A stretch of DNA of 36,964 nucleotides from Bacilli bacterium (lineage in GTDB: Bacteria > Bacillota_I > Bacilli_A > Izemoplasmatales > Hujiaoplasmataceae), in assembly GCA_016935515.1 (NCBI GenBank), contig JAFGQT010000079.1, positions 1 to 36,964 on the forward strand, written 5' to 3'. Both the position numbers and the translations under genes were made by a program. Position 1 is the stretch's first letter, and every line of letters begins with the position of its first letter. Shown piece by piece: positions 724-28,977 of this stretch. The notes beneath the pieces were generated by a model. The model made no database searches and was not told where the DNA came from. It was given only the letters and a program-made list of their open reading frames with translations.

Positions 724-787
724 TTTTTAAACGCCAACAAATCCGACCAACCATTTGTTTATATTGGTGAAACGGGAGGTCAACCAT

Positions 788-2782
788 ATGAAAAAAATAG
801 TAATCTTCGCTTTGATATTATTGGGAGCCATCGGACTCATCGGTTGTGATCAAAGGTATGAACCGCTTGATTACAAGTCGATTGACGAAGTCGGCAGTTT
901 CAAGAATTATGCACAACTCAAGGATTACTTGGATTCCTTCTATGAAGATCAAGAACAATATTATTACGGCGGTAATCTTGAATCCGACATGGCATCTACC
1001 GCTGCAATGACCACTACAGTTGCCAATGCGGCTATGGATGGTTCTGAAGACAGATCCTACAGCGAAACCAACAATCAGGTCGATGGCGTGTTTGAGTCAG
1101 ATCGGATCCTGACGGACGGATATTACATCTACGTGCTCGCGGACAATCGTTTTGTCATCATCGATGCGGACAATCTGACGATTGTGGACAGCTATGAACA
1201 CGAAGAAGGATATCTTTATGGTATGTACAAATACAATGATCGTATAGTCCTTTTGGCCAATGAGTACCATTATTGGTATGAGACAGAGCCGGTCAGTGAT
1301 AAATCCGAAGATGATGGCTATCTCTTCGACTATTACTATGTCCGATACTCCTTTGGAACACGTGTGATGGTTTTTGACACAACCATCAAGACAGACATCG
1401 AACTGGAAAAGGAAATGTATTTCGAAGGAAGTTACCTTACCGACAGCAGAATGATCGATGGACACGTCTATCTGGTTCTCAACAATTATGCAGCTAGCTA
1501 CGGCTACGATGATACGACGTATATCCCGCAATATTATGACTCTACGGTAGACGACGAAATCATTCAATTGCCTGCTAGCGACATCTATTACATGCCTAAT
1601 GACTACAATTCATTCGGTTATCTGCTTCTTGTCTCTTTTGCGGTTGAAGGTGATGAGGCAGCTAACGTCAAGGGATACCTTGGCAGCACTTATCAGATAT
1701 TCATGAGTCTTGACAATCTCTATACTATCGTCTATCGCTATTGGTACGACGAAGCAGTGAGTTTCTATCGCAACGAAACATTGATCATCAGATATGAGAT
1801 CGAGGATCACGAATTGGTTTACAAAGCGACCGGATCTGTAGACGGATCACCTTTGAATCAGTTCTCTATGGATGAACATGATGGTTATTTCCGAATTGCG
1901 ACGACAGGATATTCGTATACGGAAGATTCATGGGAGATATCGAACAAGGTTACGATTTTCGATGCGACGACCGAAGGTGTGATCGAACCGGTTTCAGTTC
2001 TTGAAGGCCTTGGCAAACCAAACGAGAGGATCTATGCAGTGAGATTCAGTGGCGATGTCGCTTATGTCGTTACATTCGTCAATACCGATCCTTTATACAA
2101 ACTAGATCTTTCTGATCCTGAAAATCCGGAAATCCTCGGAGAACTTTACGAAGAAGGAGTCAGCGATTATCTACACGAAATAAGCGATGATTTGTTGTTG
2201 GGAGTCGGGCGACAAGCTGAAACCGTCAATGAATTTACCAATTTCACCGGTGTCAAGATTGCCTTATACGACGTTTCTGGAAATGATCCATTGGCCATTG
2301 AGACGTACTTCGTCGAAGGCGAGTACAGCTATACTCCTGTCATCTATGACCACAAGGCTTTTGTCAGTTATGAGCCAGATGAAGCTGATTTTCTATACGT
2401 TGCCATACCAGTTTATGAGTATAATGACTATTACTGGCGTTCAAGTCAGAGCGTATTCGTGTTCAAGGTGCACTATAGCGGTGACTTAGAATACTTGACC
2501 AAACTTACGCACATGCAAGAACAGCCTGCAAGTGATGAATATTATTACTGGTACTGGGATTCAATCGAAAGAACGATCATGATCGAAAATCGTATCTATA
2601 CCGTTTCCTACAACCAGATTCAGATGTACGACATGGATTCTGATTTCGCTTTCCTTGGCAAATTGGAGTTTTCGATTCCTGTAAGCGATGAGCCAGTTGA
2701 TGATGAAACTACGACCACTAGCGGAGCGTACAATCCTGATGAAACAATCACTACTCAAGTTGGCGATGATTCAGACAACTAA
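788..2782 (+). CDS. Secreted lipoprotein with beta-propeller domain (PF09826-like)
   Basis: ORF track starts at 755, but ATG 788 has gggaggt upstream and begins a lipoprotein signal MKKIVIFALILLGAIGLIGC. YSETNNQVDGVFESDRILTDGYYIYVL matches the family signature 'YSxTNxQVxGVDEADxxKTDGxYIYxL'. Confidence 0.85.
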   Translation: MKKIVIFALILLGAIGLIGCDQRYEPLDYKSIDEVGSFKNYAQLKDYLDSFYEDQEQYYYGGNLESDMASTAAMTTTVANAAMDGSEDRSYSETNNQVDGVFESDRILTDGYYIYVLADNRFVIIDADNLTIVDSYEHEEGYLYGMYKYNDRIVLLANEYHYWYETEPVSDKSEDDGYLFDYYYVRYSFGTRVMVFDTTIKTDIELEKEMYFEGSYLTDSRMIDGHVYLVLNNYAASYGYDDTTYIPQYYDSTVDDEIIQLPASDIYYMPNDYNSFGYLLLVSFAVEGDEAANVKGYLGSTYQIFMSLDNLYTIVYRYWYDEAVSFYRNETLIIRYEIEDHELVYKATGSVDGSPLNQFSMDEHDGYFRIATTGYSYTEDSWEISNKVTIFDATTEGVIEPVSVLEGLGKPNERIYAVRFSGDVAYVVTFVNTDPLYKLDLSDPENPEILGELYEEGVSDYLHEISDDLLLGVGRQAETVNEFTNFTGVKIALYDVSGNDPLAIETYFVEGEYSYTPVIYDHKAFVSYEPDEADFLYVAIPVYEYNDYYWRSSQSVFVFKVHYSGDLEYLTKLTHMQEQPASDEYYYWYWDSIERTIMIENRIYTVSYNQIQMYDMDSDFAFLGKLEFSIPVSDEPVDDETTTTSGAYNPDETITTQVGDDSDN

Positions 2783-2802: not shown

Positions 2803-2828
2803 GAGCCGATTATATCGGCTCTTTTTTC
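2803..2828 (+). terminator. Rho-independent terminator after the beta-propeller gene
   Basis: GAGCCGAT-TAT-ATCGGCTC stem followed by TTTTTTC. Confidence 0.85.
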
Positions 2829-2987
2829 GTCTTGCGGATGTTGAATAGACCATTTTATGTAAAATATCATTGATTTTTTACTTGAATGACAAAAAACTCG
2901 GTTACCCATATAGATTTATTGTCAAATTAGTGATATATATTTAAGTGTAGAACAATTGAATAAAACCCATTTTAAGGAGGGGTGCAA

Positions 2988-5900
2988 ATGAAAAGCAGAT
3001 TCATCGCTCTGGTTCTGTTTGTTTTTCTTGGCCTATTTTTGGCTGGTTGTGATTTCTTTGGCGGCGGTACGATTACCATTCCCACAACCTTCACGACCGA
3101 GTCTACGGCAGATACCAGTGCAACTGAAAGTACTGGGACTACGGTAGTAACGACTACCGCAGTGTCTTCAGATTCATCAACGAGTGGTTCCGAAGTAACT
3201 ACTGTTACTACAGTCAGCTCCGGAACAGAAACCACTACAACGAGTGGTTCCGAAGTAACTACAGTTACTACAGTCAGCTCCGGAACAGAAACCACTACAA
3301 CGGCTACAGTTACTCCTACAACAACTGTTAGCTCCGGAGTAGTAACCACTACAACGACTACAGTCGTACCAACAACGACTACAACAACTACAGCTGTTAC
3401 CACTGCTCCTACAACTGCAGTTACTACCACTGAAACAACTACTGAGGAAGTTATCACAGTTGTATTTTTAAATGCAGATGGAACAATCTTGGCAACAGAA
3501 ACCATTTTACCAGGAGAATCTGTAACGCCTCCTGCAGATCCGACAATGGCAGACAGCAGCAATTATCGGTATACTTTCGTCGAATGGGATCATGATATGA
3601 CCGGAATCATGGAAAGCGTCACTATCCGTGCGCTATATGACGTCGAGTACCTTGGTTCTACCGGCACTTACGACCATGCGATGTTGTTGGCCTTGATGCA
3701 AGGCATGACGCCGGATTATACAGAAACGAACGAAGAGATGGAAGAACAGATCGGCTTCATGATGGGATTGTTAGGCATCCCATCCGAAGAGCACTTCTAT
3801 GTTTTGATGAGCCAAGTCCCGACATTGTTGACTCAACTAGAAGGAGTCACAAATGCAACGGACTTCACAGCTTGGTATCAATCTACCAAGACTGCTGGAT
3901 TCACGGAGGAGGTAATTGTCGACGCGGTGATCAATGCGTTGATGTTTGGCCTCAGAGGACAGGTAGAGTACTTTGACATTGATTATATGTATGATGACAT
4001 AGCTTATCAGCAGGGAATCATTGACACGAACACTCCATTGATGGAAGGCATCAGGGCTCAAGTAGTCGATTACTGCAATACTTCGACTCCGGCGGGAACT
4101 GACTGCATCCAGTTGTTCGATTACATGGTTGATGATTACCATGATCATTTCTATTATCAAGAGCAGAGCGAAAACTATCTCAATTCCATAGATTGGAATT
4201 GGGAGATAATGAATAAATATTATGAACTTGAAAATCTGCTTAATGAATACATTGAAGCGATGTATCATGATGAACAACCACTCGTAGCTGCAGAAGTCAT
4301 GGTGTTGTTCGACACTACCTTTGCGGCTCTAAATCCTGAGCTCCAAGCAGAATTGGATCCATTATTGGATGCTTTCCTTGATTGGAAAGAGGACGAAGCC
4401 CAGTTCACACAACCGTTGATGAACGATTTGTGGGAAGTCAATGATACAGAAGGCTATGCGGTTTCTTATACAATCCAAAATCAATATTTCAATGACTATC
4501 TCAATATGTTCTGGTCAATAAATAATGCTGAAAATGAGATTCATTGGATGGAAGAAGAAATCCAAAGACGCCTTCAAGAACATGCACAGATGGAATTGAT
4601 TTACAATTATTTACAGACACCTGAGGGAATGAACAAACTAAAACTCCTCGTAATCTCTATCTACGACGTTGTGGACGCTTTGGCTCTCAATGTCGATCCT
4701 GACTTGTTCGCATTGGTGATGAGCCTGGCCACAGATCCTATGTTCAACCCTGAAAGTCTGTTGACGGCGGAAAACATCGTGCTTTATGTTGACAAAGTCG
4801 TGACGACTTTGCGACTAGTGCAGACAACATTCGGAACTGAGGAGATTGACAATCTCGGGAGTATTGCCGAAGACGTAATCACTTTGTTCATCGATGCACA
4901 GGATATGCCTGAAGCAGAGAAAGAAGCTTTGAAGTTTTTGGTTATTCCTCAGATTGATGCATATCTGACGATGGCAGCCACTTCATTCGACGACATCCTG
5001 ACATTCCTTGATTCGATTGACTTGGTCAAGGCTCAAGCCATTCTTGATGCAGTGACCTATTTCACAGGATACGTTCCGGTTGTTGAGCCGCTTATGGTGG
5101 AAACCGGACCAGCTGTCGAAGACATCGTTTATATTGCAAATCTTGTTGAAGTGATGATTGGCGACGATTCACTTGATCTAGCATCACTTATGGACAATAT
5201 GATCACAGTTTACTTTGACATGACTTATTTCTTCCAGGCTGATAGCCAACTTGAAGCAGATGTGAGAACGAATATCCAAGCTAATTTAGCGCGTTTGCTC
5301 GAAATGGCACCGCTGGTAGGCGCAATTGATCCACTGGCAATGACGATGGCTGATTATGCCCTGCTGGAAGAATTGATTGCCAGGTTGGAAGCTTTTGGCA
5401 TGATGTTCGAGTACGGTTTGGAGAGCATGCTGGAGCCGATTGCGTTCGGTTACGATCATCAGAAGTTCGTCGATCTAGCATATGAAATTGGCGACTGGGA
5501 CATGACATCAGCCGAAGCCGAACAACTTATCCTAGATTTGATGGCCATGCTTGAAGAGACCGATGAAGAGACGGCTTATTACCTGATGATGTCTATAATG
5601 ATGCATGTTGGAAACTTCTATTCTGTCGATTCATTTACAGACCTCAAGAGCTGGATTGATGGATTCTATGGTTTTGGCATGACAAAGCCAGAGATGGCAT
5701 CAACTATTCTGAACTTCCTTGTATTCCAAATGGACCAAGATCTCGGACCTGATGGTTGGCTTGCTCAAGATGTTCTCTACTATACAAGTGAAATTGCCGA
5801 GAACCAAGCGCTCATAGTTACACATCAAGGCTATTTGAATCAAATTGATGCGGACGTTTTGGCCATGTTGGTTGATTATGGAAGTTACACTCAAGCAGAG

Positions 5901-8705
5901 ATCGATGCTTTCATGGCACATTGGGGCAACGAGAAAGAGTACATTATCAGAGATATCGAACTTCACTTTGCCGTCAGTCGTGCAGGCTATGACTGGAACT
6001 TCAGTTACGACACATATTATAATCTTGATGACTTGTTGTGGATGTACTATGAGTATGGCGAAGCCAGTTACCTCGATGATTATAATTCACTTTATGCAAT
6101 GCTATCACCAGAAGAACAAGCCATTTATGGTCCGCTGCTGACGCAATCTGGCGACTTCTATTCTTGGATAAATAATGTCTATTGGCCAGCCTACAATAGT
6201 TTTGATGAAGCCCCGTATGAAGGCAGCGGTGTTGTGGAATTCATGTACGGTTCAGCTGTCTATGATTATGAAGACAATTTCTGGTCTATCAAGGATATTG
6301 AAGATTGGATTTTCTGGGATCAGATAAGGCTTGATGATGTTAATAGGGAAATTGCCAGCAAAACGGCAATGCGCGATTACCTAGCAGATCCGCTCAACGA
6401 AGTCGCACTTGAAACCTTGATGGTTGCGGCGATGGATGAACTTGACAACATGATGAATTTGGCTGACCCTGCTACATTCGACATCTTCACCCGTATGATT
6501 TTTGAAAGAATCGGATATTATTACGTGGCATCGCTAGATTATATACCTGAAGAGCCCATGATTGATATGTCACCTGAAGCCATTCTTGGATATGTCCAAG
6601 ATGTTGCGGTTGTGCTTGACGGATTGTTCACGACAATGGATCCTGCTGAGGACGCTTTGTTGCTTGATTTTATCGCCGACATGATCGAAATGCAATTTGT
6701 GGCTGACGGAATGACTCAAATCGAAATCGATGCTCAGATGCTTCTGATCGAAGGTGCTCTTGCCAAATGGTATCCGAGAGTTGAAGAGGTTCTGGATATT
6801 GTGATAGTGGCTTTGCAAGGACTGGATATTACGGAAGTTGACCAGATCATGAAAGTCATTCCTAAACCAGATCAAGAACCCTCGATGCTGCAGATTGTGA
6901 ACTCGGTGGCAATTCTGGCAAATGTCTTCACCAACGATATAACCCCGACCATCGATGACACACTTGATTACGCAGTATTGCTTGACTACATGATTGAGCT
7001 CTACTATGATGTCAAATATCAACTTGTATATACGAACACAGAAATGCAAGCAATACAGGATGTTGTTGCCAATCATATGACAGACTTGCTGCCTGATCTA
7101 TACTTGATTGCTGCTATTCAACCGGGAACACTCACCGATGCTGACTTGCCGTTGATTTATGAAACCGTAAGATACGGCGAATGGCTCGCACAGAACTTTA
7201 GTGATCTTGAAAACATGGTATATCCGGCACCTTCGTTTACCTATGTCCATCAGGATTTTGTCGATCTCGTTATGAAGATTCACGGAGATTGGTTGGAGCT
7301 TACGGAAGTCGAAGCTTTGATAGTTGACTATATGGCAGTATTTGAAACTACGGACGAAGCTACCGCTTTCTACAAATTGCTGATATTCGGATCAGTTGCA
7401 CACAATTTGGAATATATCGATTCATTCCATAGTCTTGTCGGATTGTATTTCAATATTACTTCACTTGGCTTCAGCAAGGAACAACTCACAACGTATGTGA
7501 TCAATTTCATCGCCATGAAACTTAACGAAGAGGCCACTTACATTCAAGAAAGAATCACAGAGTTGGAAGGTTGGATTGCAGATAGCGAGCAAGGAATTAT
7601 TGATCAAGAAGCTAATATTTCATTGATCATCGCCGATATTGAAACTGAGATCGCTACACTGGCTCTAACATACCCCAGTGAAATGTTGGTTGCTACACAA
7701 ATGCTTGATACTTACATGATTCTTTTTGAGCAACTGGGAGATTACTATGAAGCTATCGTTATTGCCAAAAACCTCGAGGGATTCTATTTTGATTCGTATA
7801 TTTATACTGAGTTGGTCTATGCTCGCTTCGGAGATGAATGGGATGAACCCAATATTGAGTATTATAATGATCTTGTAAGTTGGTTGACTCCGGAAGAGTC
7901 TTCAGTTTACTTGCCTCTACTTGATCTGTACCAAGCTTGGAACTATACTTGGGAATTCGATTATAATCCGTTGTATTATCAAGTTTGGGCATATGAGATC
8001 TATACCTCCAGTTCATGGAATATAGCCGAATACATTGATGATCAATGTTGGCAGGTTACGGAACTTATTTATGATATCAAACAATATAACGAATGGATTC
8101 TTAGTGATCAACATGAACTCGACTCGATATTAAAAGATTCGGTCATGCTGAATACAATGCTCTACTATTTGTCTGATGTGGATATGAGTTCATATTTCCC
8201 ATCTAATCCATATGCAGCAGTTCCCAACACGGAACTTGCGGCGGATGCCTTAGTTGTCCTGATGAACAGGTTTGAGACATTGTTGCCGACCTTGACACCG
8301 AGTGACATGTGGCAACTGGAAGATTTGTTTGGCGGTTATTATGAAGTTTATTCGCCATATGAAGTCGTTGAAGTCGTGAAGATCGCAATGAAGCTTTTCG
8401 GACCGTTGTTGATTGACGCTTCCGGAACTTCTGGTGTTGATTCCGAACTCAACACATTGCTGAATCGTCTGTTTATCGCCTATGCAAACTCTGTAGTGCT
8501 GGAAACTGGTCAAACAGTTGAGGATGTTAGATTCGCGCTCCAGCAAGCCGTCTTCGATGTTATCGATCTGGCTTACCTTGTCAACGAGCTGGATCCATAC
8601 AACCTTACTACGACAGATATCGAACTGGTATATCAATTCTTGTATGCCATCGATGATGTGAAATTCATTCTTGCTCCCGAAGATTACGTAGAACCGGTAA
8701 TGTAA
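2988..8705 (+). CDS. Giant repeat-containing predicted lipoprotein (~1905 aa), function unknown
   Basis: ATG 2988 with aaggagg 7 nt upstream. Signal/lipobox MKSRFIALVLFVFLGLFLAGC. Thr/Ser-rich linker, one InlB/Flg_new-like domain, then three ~595/597/487-aa homologous modules. Continuous ORF. Confidence 0.92.
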   Translation: MKSRFIALVLFVFLGLFLAGCDFFGGGTITIPTTFTTESTADTSATESTGTTVVTTTAVSSDSSTSGSEVTTVTTVSSGTETTTTSGSEVTTVTTVSSGTETTTTATVTPTTTVSSGVVTTTTTTVVPTTTTTTTAVTTAPTTAVTTTETTTEEVITVVFLNADGTILATETILPGESVTPPADPTMADSSNYRYTFVEWDHDMTGIMESVTIRALYDVEYLGSTGTYDHAMLLALMQGMTPDYTETNEEMEEQIGFMMGLLGIPSEEHFYVLMSQVPTLLTQLEGVTNATDFTAWYQSTKTAGFTEEVIVDAVINALMFGLRGQVEYFDIDYMYDDIAYQQGIIDTNTPLMEGIRAQVVDYCNTSTPAGTDCIQLFDYMVDDYHDHFYYQEQSENYLNSIDWNWEIMNKYYELENLLNEYIEAMYHDEQPLVAAEVMVLFDTTFAALNPELQAELDPLLDAFLDWKEDEAQFTQPLMNDLWEVNDTEGYAVSYTIQNQYFNDYLNMFWSINNAENEIHWMEEEIQRRLQEHAQMELIYNYLQTPEGMNKLKLLVISIYDVVDALALNVDPDLFALVMSLATDPMFNPESLLTAENIVLYVDKVVTTLRLVQTTFGTEEIDNLGSIAEDVITLFIDAQDMPEAEKEALKFLVIPQIDAYLTMAATSFDDILTFLDSIDLVKAQAILDAVTYFTGYVPVVEPLMVETGPAVEDIVYIANLVEVMIGDDSLDLASLMDNMITVYFDMTYFFQADSQLEADVRTNIQANLARLLEMAPLVGAIDPLAMTMADYALLEELIARLEAFGMMFEYGLESMLEPIAFGYDHQKFVDLAYEIGDWDMTSAEAEQLILDLMAMLEETDEETAYYLMMSIMMHVGNFYSVDSFTDLKSWIDGFYGFGMTKPEMASTILNFLVFQMDQDLGPDGWLAQDVLYYTSEIAENQALIVTHQGYLNQIDADVLAMLVDYGSYTQAEIDAFMAHWGNEKEYIIRDIELHFAVSRAGYDWNFSYDTYYNLDDLLWMYYEYGEASYLDDYNSLYAMLSPEEQAIYGPLLTQSGDFYSWINNVYWPAYNSFDEAPYEGSGVVEFMYGSAVYDYEDNFWSIKDIEDWIFWDQIRLDDVNREIASKTAMRDYLADPLNEVALETLMVAAMDELDNMMNLADPATFDIFTRMIFERIGYYYVASLDYIPEEPMIDMSPEAILGYVQDVAVVLDGLFTTMDPAEDALLLDFIADMIEMQFVADGMTQIEIDAQMLLIEGALAKWYPRVEEVLDIVIVALQGLDITEVDQIMKVIPKPDQEPSMLQIVNSVAILANVFTNDITPTIDDTLDYAVLLDYMIELYYDVKYQLVYTNTEMQAIQDVVANHMTDLLPDLYLIAAIQPGTLTDADLPLIYETVRYGEWLAQNFSDLENMVYPAPSFTYVHQDFVDLVMKIHGDWLELTEVEALIVDYMAVFETTDEATAFYKLLIFGSVAHNLEYIDSFHSLVGLYFNITSLGFSKEQLTTYVINFIAMKLNEEATYIQERITELEGWIADSEQGIIDQEANISLIIADIETEIATLALTYPSEMLVATQMLDTYMILFEQLGDYYEAIVIAKNLEGFYFDSYIYTELVYARFGDEWDEPNIEYYNDLVSWLTPEESSVYLPLLDLYQAWNYTWEFDYNPLYYQVWAYEIYTSSSWNIAEYIDDQCWQVTELIYDIKQYNEWILSDQHELDSILKDSVMLNTMLYYLSDVDMSSYFPSNPYAAVPNTELAADALVVLMNRFETLLPTLTPSDMWQLEDLFGGYYEVYSPYEVVEVVKIAMKLFGPLLIDASGTSGVDSELNTLLNRLFIAYANSVVLETGQTVEDVRFALQQAVFDVIDLAYLVNELDPYNLTTTDIELVYQFLYAIDDVKFILAPEDYVEPVM
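3181..3300 (+). repeat. Two tandem 60-bp repeats in the Thr-rich linker, plus a degenerate partial third copy
   Basis: 3181-3240 and 3241-3300 match at 59/60 positions (T/A difference at 3203 vs 3263). Each encodes ~20 aa (TSGSEVTTVTTVSSGTETTT). Degenerate continuation at ~3301-3354. Confidence 0.95.
3669..8702 (+). repeat. Three diverged tandem protein modules (3669-5450, 5451-7241, 7242-8702)
   Basis: Modules begin YDHAMLLAL / YDHQKFVDLAYEI / YVHQDFVDLVMKI. Matching internal segments: FTAWYQSTKTAGFTEEVIVDAVINALMF / LKSWIDGFYGFGMTKPEMASTILNFLVF / LVGLYFNITSLGFSKEQLTTYVINFIAM, and LNPELQAELDPLLDAF / LSPEEQAIYGPLLTQS / LTPEESSVYLPLLDLY. Confidence 0.85.
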
Positions 8706-8724
8706 TTGTTTTAGAAGAATCAAG

Positions 8725-8760
8725 TGGAGCCAAAATGCAAAATTTTGGCTCCATTTTTCT
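8725..8760 (+). terminator. Rho-independent terminator after the giant lipoprotein gene
   Basis: TGGAGCCAAAAT-gcaaa-ATTTTGGCTCCA, 12-bp stem, then TTTTTCTTT. Confidence 0.92.
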
Positions 8761-8765
8761 TTATA

Positions 8766-8774
8766 TGCTATAAT
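8766..8774 (+). promoter_or_regulatory. Extended -10 promoter element
   Basis: TGCTATAAT between the terminator and ATG 8790. Confidence 0.6.
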
Positions 8775-8789
8775 ATATTTGGTGATAAT

Positions 8790-9509
8790 ATGCCTATTGC
8801 TTCGCTACAAAACGATACTTTCAAGGAACTTATGAAACTCAAACAGAAAAAATACCGAGAGCGCGAAGCTTTGTTTTTGGTTGAAGGTGAACATCTGGTC
8901 AAGGAAGCCATTCAAACAAACGCTTGTGTCAAGGTAATCGGGACTGTAAGACCTGAATATTGGACTGGCGAGATGATTTTGTTGGAACAAGAATTGCTAG
9001 AGAAACTAACTGATGTCGAAAGTTCCAGTTTGATTTTCGCTGTATGTATGAAGGCCGATGCCGATATCGCCCACGATCAGATTCTCCTCCTCGACGGGAT
9101 TCAGGATCCTGGTAATCTTGGTACACTTCTTAGAAGCGCATGCGCATTTGGCTTTGGCGGTATAGTTTATGAGAACACGGTTGACATGTATAATCCAAAA
9201 GTGCTGAGAGCGACTCAAGGAGCGATCTTCAAATTGACTTTCAAGGAAGATTCATTAACTGACTTCATCAACAGCCATCCTGAGTATAATTATATCGGGA
9301 CAGATGTCACAAGTGGAAAGCCCTTGAAGGATTATAAACCAACTCAAGGGAAATTGGCGCTAATCCTAGGCAACGAAGGAAATGGAGTAAGAGAAGACTT
9401 GCTTCGAAAGACATCAATAAATCTAAAAATAGATATGAAAGATACCGAATCACTGAATGTCGGCGTTGCTGGAAGCATATTGATGCATTATCTCAGAGGT
9501 GAAAAATAA
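8790..9509 (+). CDS. TrmH/SpoU family RNA 2'-O-methyltransferase
   Basis: The track start at 8724 lies in the upstream terminator; ATG 8790 is downstream of the -10. Motifs LLDGIQDPGNLGTLLRSACAFGF, LALILGNEGNGVRED and LNVGVAGSILMHYLR are SPOUT motifs 1-3. Confidence 0.9.
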   Translation: MPIASLQNDTFKELMKLKQKKYREREALFLVEGEHLVKEAIQTNACVKVIGTVRPEYWTGEMILLEQELLEKLTDVESSSLIFAVCMKADADIAHDQILLLDGIQDPGNLGTLLRSACAFGFGGIVYENTVDMYNPKVLRATQGAIFKLTFKEDSLTDFINSHPEYNYIGTDVTSGKPLKDYKPTQGKLALILGNEGNGVREDLLRKTSINLKIDMKDTESLNVGVAGSILMHYLRGEK

Positions 9510-10857: not shown

Positions 10858-11739
10858 TTACACCGTCGTATTTGGGATTGCTTTTGATATCACACTGCGG
10901 TGGAAGAAGATAATTGTTATATAGCCAGCCGCAACAGTCAAAGCTAGAAAGATCCCGACTTCAGTCATGCGAACGGTTTCGTCTAGAAATCCTTGGACAA
11001 CTGCCATGGTCCCCACGGCAGTAAAAAGTGCAGTTCCTTTAAACAGTAGAACTGAGGTCAAAACATATCCTACAACAGTTCTTTTCGCAAGCTTATAGGC
11101 TGCAAAAAGAGACAGGGGAACAATGATTCCCAAGTCCATCACCTGGATTACAAGAGTGTGATATGTCTCGAGTCCAACTGGTTGCATAGAAGGCGATAGG
11201 GCTGGGATTATCCGTGCCAACCACATTAGGGCCAGCATTGTTCCAACCAAAACAAGAAAGACCACGGTTCGGCGTATTGGGAGTGGCAGCTTGTATATTT
11301 CCCTGATTTTGTCAGTCTTGAGGGTTATTGAAGTTCTGATGATCAAATAGCCGGACAATGACATATTCCACACATAAAGCAGAAACAACTCATTGAAATG
11401 GGATAAGAACGCATATGACATGTAAGCATACAAGGTGTAGCCAAGCAGACCAATGAAGAATAACTTTGACAATTCGCTGTTTTCCTTCAATTTTAACCAG
11501 GCGACGATAAATAGGCTTCCCCAAACAAGAATGGTGACCACATCTTGAGAGATGGCCTGAATAGCAACACTTTGTGTATCAAACCGATAGATTCCACTTC
11601 CGTGAAGCAAGAATGATTCGCCATGAATGCTTGTGACTTCAACCGGGGATCCACCAATTGAAAGAATCCCAATAATGGCGGCACTTACCACCCCTAGAAA
11701 CAATACGATACTCCAAAACTTGATGTGCTTGAAATTCAT
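10858..11739 (-). CDS. Multi-pass membrane protein of unknown function
   Basis: 293-aa ORF with several hydrophobic segments. aaggag RBS upstream of ATG. Minus-strand promoter-like TTGATG-17-TATAAT upstream. Confidence 0.8.
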   Translation of the reverse strand: MNFKHIKFWSIVLFLGVVSAAIIGILSIGGSPVEVTSIHGESFLLHGSGIYRFDTQSVAIQAISQDVVTILVWGSLFIVAWLKLKENSELSKLFFIGLLGYTLYAYMSYAFLSHFNELFLLYVWNMSLSGYLIIRTSITLKTDKIREIYKLPLPIRRTVVFLVLVGTMLALMWLARIIPALSPSMQPVGLETYHTLVIQVMDLGIIVPLSLFAAYKLAKRTVVGYVLTSVLLFKGTALFTAVGTMAVVQGFLDETVRMTEVGIFLALTVAAGYITIIFFHRSVISKAIPNTTV

Positions 11740-27342: not shown

Positions 27343-27375
27343 CATTCAGTTATTTGAAATAAGGGAGGTGATGTG

Positions 27376-28977
27376 ATGGATAATCGGGAAAAAGCCCTTG
27401 ACGAGTTTTTTCGAAAGAACGAAACTGGAAGAAAAAAGAATATCAACAAGATGTCAACGCCCGAAACTGAACAAAAGATCGATCAGTATATGGCATCCGT
27501 CGCACCGGAAAAACCACCCAAAAAGAGAACTAGATTGGATAAATTCGTAGACTTTTTTCGCATCACGTCCTTCAAGAATCGTTTTGATGAAAAAAAAGTC
27601 GGCGCAAATATAAAACAATACGAGGTTGAAGGAAAAGGCAAACTGGCAATCCTGATGTCCAACATCAGGCAGTTCTTCATCAACCGATTCAGTTTCGAAG
27701 CAGGTGTCGACATCCTTGACGAGACTTCAGTTCTTTATCGAAAAAACCTCGTAATTCGAAACATTCTTTGGGTTACCAATATCGTGTTTTTGCTTTTCAC
27801 CTTGATTGGTTCAGAAGGCGTGAAGTTGAACGTCAATCTGATTGTGAGTTTCGCCATCTTCTTGATCATGTTCTTTTCAAGCCAGACAGTCAGACAGATT
27901 ATCTCCCAAGAACCTAAAACTCTCCACAAGCAACAGCTTGGGGAATACATTTCTGGTATTTACATCTTTTTGATGGCACTCGCAGTATATATCAAATTGC
28001 GTTTGACGCTTGGCAGCAATGCCGCGGAAGGTTTCTTCAGCATAACCCAAGCTGGATATTCACTGATCTATTTTGCTTTGGTGGTGCTTGCTTTATACCA
28101 GGATCCAAAGCTTTTGAATCTCGTCTTCAAAGTTGCCATTGTCGCTATGACCATCATCCATTTGACGATTTTGTATCCCGTCTATGAGCATGCGTCTGAT
28201 ATTGTGACTCTATGGAATTACCTAAAAGGACCGATTTTGACCGACATTGTCCTCAGAACCCTTGTCTTGGCGGTATTCATGATCGCTTTATATTCCACAG
28301 CCAAGATATCCGAAGACATGAACAACAAGCGCAAAGAAGAGCTGATCAAGCGCAGGGCAATGGAAAAAGACTTCAAAGCGGTCGTCTCAGATGTTTTCGA
28401 CGTCATCAGTGTTTACAAACAGCGTGATGATGACAACAAGGAGAAAATGCTGGAAGCCTCCGGCAAGCGTGTCGCTGAAATGGCAGCCAAATTGGGTAAT
28501 TTCTTAGGCTATTCTCCCAAGTTGTGTCAGGAGATATTCGATTTCTCAAAAATCCATATCGACAAACGCGATTATTTGAGCCTCGCCGATTATGATGACA
28601 AAGAAGTTTTGGAAGATGCGGACATTCGGAAAATCAGAGAAAAAACGATAATTGGATCAATCATAATCAAGCGTCTGCAACTTGAAAAAAAAGGCGAGGA
28701 CATCGTCCGCGCTCATTTTGAAAAAACTGCAGACAAGAACTTCATCAAGGAAATGAACCAAATCCAAAACAATCGCGAATCGCAAGTGATTTTGCTTTGC
28801 GAATTGTACGAGATATTAAGACAACCGCGCAATTACAAACGTGAAATGAAACATTCCAGAGCGCTGGACTTGTTGCAACTGGAGTTCTTTCCATATTTCG
28901 ACCCACAGATTCTCGACCGATTCGTCAAGTATAGTGACGATTTCGAGTCGATTTATTACCGGCTTTCACAAGGATAG
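27376..28977 (+). CDS. Multi-pass membrane protein with C-terminal degenerate HD-GYP-like domain
   Basis: Several TM helices (~aa 130-310). C-terminal [19 protein letters not shown]... and [51 protein letters not shown] resemble the HD-GYP scaffold without the catalytic His/Asp motifs. Confidence 0.65.

Follow-up and report, generated by a model that had tools for sequence, protein, structure and literature searches.

Free-living bacteria without a cell wall face their surroundings through membrane-anchored proteins. Among known systems, those closest to the giant protein described here include the proteins with Flg_new/Listeria-Bacteroides repeats (PF09479, the InlB B-repeat), which are exported and carry tandem beta repeats of ~60-65 aa. 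The FN3-type helical lipoproteins (family A10 of our analysis) share with it a lipoprotein anchor, a beta domain and an acidic helical ectodomain. Repeat surface lipoproteins of Mollicutes, such as the palindromic amphipathic repeat proteins (PMC2996958), are likewise repeat-built surface proteins of wall-less bacteria. Loss of peptidoglycan has been reported for the Izemoplasmatales at the level of the order (PMC10868615), and a cultured strain of the order has no visible wall (PMC8397711). Two papers on the Izemoplasmatales that were searched for lipoproteins make no mention of them.

The window, by which we mean the whole stretch of 36,964 nucleotides that was analysed, is one contig of a 1.4-Mb assembly, 78% complete, of a sediment bacterium of the Izemoplasmatales. 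It contains a gene for a giant lipoprotein, whose parts and surroundings are as follows.

755..2782, + strand: conserved upstream neighbour, PF09826 beta-propeller probable lipoprotein, lipobox LIGC
2803..2821, + strand: terminator-like hairpin between the beta-propeller gene and the giant gene
2974..2983, + strand: Shine-Dalgarno-like aaggaggggt, 4 nt 5' of the ATG (sequence)
2988-8705, + strand: giant lipoprotein gene, 1905 aa
2988..3050, + strand: lipoprotein signal peptide, lipobox LAGC, Cys21 (translation; layout repeated in complete relatives)
3051..3452, + strand: Thr/Ser-rich linker, aa 22-155, with no K/R and no Tyr/Trp
3456..3614, + strand: single Flg_new/InlB-B-repeat-like unit, aa 157-209, ~60 aa (profile of relatives' repeats)
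3669..5450, + strand: helical module 1, 594 aa, from codon 228, YDHAM (BLASTP, profile; AlphaFold all helix)
4074..4106, + strand: Cys363...Cys373 pair, CX9C, candidate disulfide in module 1
5451..7241, + strand: helical module 2, 597 aa, from codon 822, YDHQK (BLASTP, profile; two-module model)
7242..8702, + strand: helical module 3, 487 aa, from codon 1419, YVHQD (BLASTP, profile)
8722..8756, + strand: strong terminator-like hairpin, 15-bp stem and T tract, 3' of the giant gene
8724..9509, + strand: conserved downstream neighbour, SpoU rRNA methylase

The start codon is likely the ATG at 2988, which is preceded by the Shine-Dalgarno sequence aaggagggg at 2974-2982, rather than the GTG at 2982. 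With a terminator-like hairpin on either side (2803-2821 and 8722-8756), the gene is probably monocistronic. The listed start of the SpoU ORF, GTG 8724, falls within the terminator hairpin of the giant gene, and a promoter-like site overlaps at 8745-8774 (all inside 8722-8790 of the window), so that the true SpoU start probably lies further downstream. Two other ORFs of the window, 27373-28977 (534 aa) and 10858-11739 (293 aa), have no Pfam match.

The signal peptide of the window protein ends in the lipobox pattern [LVI][ASTVI][GAS]C (MKSRFIALVLFVFLGLFLAGC), as do those of complete relatives. The initial annotation had described a linker followed by the modules; the linker is present, but the pre-module region additionally carries one Flg_new-like unit, which matches a profile built from the repeats of relatives with E=1.7e-19. 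The window protein has this one repeat-like unit, no Pfam match to it and no tandem B-repeats above the PF09479 gathering score, while PF09479 matches the pre-module region of one relative (L029).

Beyond this region, the protein consists of three consecutive modules, and the starts proposed earlier (YDHAM at 3669, YDHQK at 5451 and YVHQD at 7242, spaced by 594 and 597 codons) are exact. The proposed module length of ~595 aa applies to modules 1 and 2 but not to module 3, which is 487 aa long and shows an internal loss of ~110 aa within profile columns ~361-517. Despite this deletion the end of module 3 aligns with the module end of the profile, so that the stop codon does fall at a module boundary, as had been claimed. 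The periodicity of ~595 aa, on which the annotation had made its case depend, is strong in self-comparison. BLASTP without SEG gave 25% identity over 624 columns for modules 1 and 2 (E=3.8e-27), 25% over 333 columns for modules 2 and 3 (E=1.6e-17) and E=0.009 for modules 1 and 3; against 200 shuffles, the z-values of the global scores were 36, 17 and 7, respectively. The relatives' profile matches modules 1, 2 and 3 with E=1e-164, 3e-148 and 2e-46. Sub-repeats inside one module were rejected (HHalign between module parts, probability <=21%).

Each module contains 17-20% Y+W+F+M and only 3% K+R, and the net charges of modules 1, 2 and 3 are -89, -90 and -68. Charge, composition and an all-helix AlphaFold model thus agree with the earlier impression of helical, acidic modules rich in Tyr/Trp/Met. 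The acidity is family-wide, with a mean net charge of -0.144 per residue and 3% K+R over 45 modules. The adjacent beta-propeller lipoprotein is acidic as well (-0.127 per residue), and it is therefore possible that the acidity of the modules is partly a general trait of exported proteins in this genome.

The AlphaFold model of module 1 (16 rows, taken from the window and related loci) is all-helical, with about 22 helices (pLDDT 85.8, pTM 0.66). In the two-module model (pLDDT 79.7, pTM 0.47), module 2 repeats the helix order after a junction of ~8 residues. Foldseek at E <= 0.001 returned no PDB match for the single- and two-module models and no BFVD match for the single module; the best E values were 0.27 (PDB) and 0.11 (BFVD), with TM about 0.1. 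Judged against PDB and BFVD only, the predicted fold of the module is likely new. Searches of Pfam, NCBIfam and PHROGs with the modules gave nothing above curated cut-offs, and PDB sequences gave no match covering the module. A match of module 1 to the radical-SAM-associated DUF2344/TIGR03936 (E=2e-4 in Pfam, 0.0012 in NCBIfam) was treated as chance because it is under both cut-offs and only 1 of 45 modules shows it. DnaD and other PDB sequence matches (best E=0.0018 over 61 columns) were likewise set aside as chance short helical matches. A phage or plasmid origin was rejected, the modules having no PHROG match and no plasmid match. Only two Asp residues are near-invariant across the 45 modules, and these form no catalytic-looking pattern. 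The suggestion of an undescribed surface-protein repeat family is supported by the lack of a strong profile match and of any Foldseek match, and the module is a real, well-defined, hitherto uncurated domain family within a giant surface lipoprotein.

With a profile of 45 modules (A2) and a full module defined by E < 1e-50, full modules are present in 22 of the 34 genomes from this Candidatus Izemoplasmatales family, and none of the 56 genomes from its two sister families has one; because of the incompleteness of some genomes, the absence counts are upper bounds. A 23rd genome of the family (G007) has an eroded module at the same site. Beyond the family, 296 sampled genomes from the class and 392 from the phylum yielded short weak matches only and no full-length module. 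Named contigs encoding the protein were detected with a 5-row module alignment, whereas a scan with the three window modules as query matched none; they come from MAGs labelled Candidatus Izemoplasmatales (JAQVKB010000203), Tenericutes HGW-Tenericutes-1, Bacillales UBA5603 and two Bacillota.

The number of modules in relatives, complete or partial, is 1, 2, 3 or about 4, and one profile counts 0-9 Flg_new-like repeats in them; the order of lipobox, Thr-rich linker, repeats and modules is invariant. The protein of L023 extends to 2844 aa. Immediately 3' of the main giant gene, L024 and L030 each carry an additional gene (L024:7793-10339, 848 aa; L030:5401-7983, 860 aa) whose single module is strongly diverged. 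L032 is a further single-module gene, located apart from the three-module gene of its genome. In the genome of the window itself (G000), several long ORFs of up to 2379 aa (contigs C82:57817-62112, C97, C90, C128 and C23) together contain 34 matches to Flg_new repeats, which makes this genome rich in large repeat surface proteins.

In a tree of the 45 modules, all 19 first-position modules and the paralog L032 form one clade (100/100), most last modules form a separate one (96/86, 15 rows) and middle modules form two further clades. Position labels change 3 times on the tree versus 17 in shuffles. This grouping by position indicates that the duplications are older than the genus split, and two-module lineages mostly retain one first and one last module. 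The cysteine pair (CX9C in the window) is found in 18 of the 19 first modules and in none of the 23 later ones, suggesting a candidate disulfide peculiar to the first module. Giant orthologs of the window and two other genera are only 30-32% identical, compared with 48-57% for the beta-propeller protein, SpoU and RimP and 74-85% for PepF, IF-2 and NusA (55-85% for the beta-propeller protein, NusA, IF-2 and PepF together), making the giant the fastest-evolving protein of its neighbourhood. A counting method puts dN/dS within genera at 0.09-0.35, with dS approaching saturation in some pairs. These sequence comparisons describe a functional protein that changes fast while under purifying selection; the gene-wide dN/dS does not support positive selection as the reason for its divergence.

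Where enough flanking sequence is available, nearly all relatives share one chromosomal site. On its 5' side lie an M3 oligopeptidase gene and then the PF09826 beta-propeller gene, and on its 3' side the SpoU methylase gene followed by rimP-nusA-ylxR-L7Ae-infB-rbfA-uvrC; the exceptions are L023, which deviates on the SpoU side, and L035, where an unrelated ORF separates the giant from the M3 gene. The giant is missing from this site in seven genomes of the family (G020, G026, G021, G008, G016, G013 and G029). In six of them the beta-propeller gene adjoins SpoU, leaving the site empty, while G026 lacks both. None of the five sister-family genomes examined has a giant here, with the flanking order still recognisable, and some have a small lipoprotein gene 5' of SpoU. 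A fixed site that is empty in several genomes suggests that the gene was either acquired or retained at a single location and was probably lost repeatedly; its absence from several genomes of the same family also makes it dispensable.

The last ~200 columns of the module, i.e. its C-terminal third, are homologous by profile comparison to the FN3-type family: columns 366-568 align with it at an HHalign probability of 97.9% (E=5e-13), and 97.3% was obtained in a second run, in which reversed controls stayed at <=18%. Members of this uncurated family are lipoproteins of 720-900 aa with a helical ectodomain and, at the N-terminus, an FN3-like domain that was identified by eye and has no Pfam match. 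Full-length members occur in the genome of the window (L119:4848-7109) and across several families of the class; many of the matches listed there cover the FN3 part only. The FN3-type gene lies directly 3' of an FtsX-domain permease gene in L119, L048, L050 and L076, and L073 has a weak, sub-cut-off FtsX match upstream of it; in the genome of the window, L119:4848-8794 (G000:C54) comprises both genes. From this gene order, the lipoprotein, which is without a curated name, and the FtsX permease are probably a conserved pair, one that spans several families of the class. An 1880-aa fusion, L047:3366-9008 (G020), combines a lipobox, an FN3-like domain, the helical ectodomain, SBP_bac_8, a beta-rich domain and Peripla_BP_6, and L053 has an eroded helical module followed by two repeats of a beta-rich domain apparently shared, by eye, with L047. 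In place of an N-terminal FN3-like domain, the giant carries a Thr linker and a Flg_new-like repeat, and no FtsX-permease homolog lies beside it in the loci examined.

Together, sequence and predicted models incline us towards a membrane-anchored surface stalk/adhesin or ligand-capture protein. As its lipobox suggests, cleavage by signal peptidase II and lipidation at Cys21 would anchor the protein in the outer leaflet, and because the host lineage is without a wall (PMC10868615, PMC8397711), it would face the outside. The Thr-rich linker and the Flg_new-like repeat or repeats would serve as an adjustable spacer, beyond which tandem self-contained, highly acidic, all-helical modules with short linkers between them would form a long projecting stalk or head. 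This array, probably non-enzymatic, may contact or capture something extracellular, as in adhesion or in particle or polymer binding. We thus infer lipidation, surface exposure, an extended shape and an adhesive or ligand-capture role. The binding domains on the cousins (SBP_bac_8 and Peripla_BP_6 in L047) speak for ligand capture, while the dispensability of the gene and a pTM of only 0.66 (module) and 0.47 (two modules) count against a stalk or adhesin. The same cousins, by their fusion to two solute-binding domains in L047 and their position beside an FtsX-domain permease in L119, L048, L050 and L076, could point to an extracellular partner of a membrane machine (an FtsX-like permease or a substrate-binding system), of which the giant would be an enlarged version. 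However, no permease is found at the conserved site of the giant, where the neighbours are the beta-propeller lipoprotein and the SpoU/nusA genes; the gene is bounded by its own terminator-like hairpins, and homology to the cousins is limited to the C-terminal third. Such a partnership seems unlikely to us, as does the coupling of a permease to an extracellular process that the helical ectodomain would then provide. Still more doubtful is the broader proposal in which the module would represent a new all-alpha fold and the large founder of a superfamily of helical lipoprotein ectodomains that spans the class and partners FtsX-like permeases or solute-binding systems.

The extreme and uniform acidity of the 45 modules, the quick divergence with the architecture retained and the wall-less lineage of the host would also suit a structural coat, in which acidic modules substitute for the cell wall like a glycocalyx or S-layer and helix and charge matter most. 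However, position-specific orthology and the Cys pair imply distinct module roles, and close relatives that are wall-less by lineage, single-contig genomes included, do without the gene, so that a coat appears improbable. The fast evolution of the protein, its repeated losses and a module number that varies between and within genera might instead reflect a host- or phage-contact protein under diversifying pressure, such as an arms-race receptor or adhesin. With dN/dS well below 1 gene-wide and no match of the modules to a phage family (PHROG), we give this explanation only a slim chance. A stalk/adhesin or ligand-capture protein is therefore preferred over a permease partner, a coat and an arms-race protein, in this order.

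A domain family with an alignment, boundaries, a predicted structure and a fixed genomic address can be named (as a Pfam-type entry), expressed and solved. The relatives with an empty site provide a natural presence/absence comparison, and the FN3-type/FtsX link offers a way to test what a wider, uncharacterised ectodomain family does. Compared with Flg_new/InlB proteins, the giant uses the repeats as a spacer only, and its bulk is an all-helical module of ~590 aa unknown there. The FN3-type lipoproteins differ in their length of 720-900 aa, in occupying other sites, often next to FtsX, and in their class-wide range. The repeats of the Mollicutes proteins are described as short, similar and horizontally shared, whereas the giant has few modules of ~590 aa that are ~25% identical and vertically inherited. 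The modular repeat surface lipoprotein is thus known as a kind; new are the module, its likely fold and the position-specialised array.
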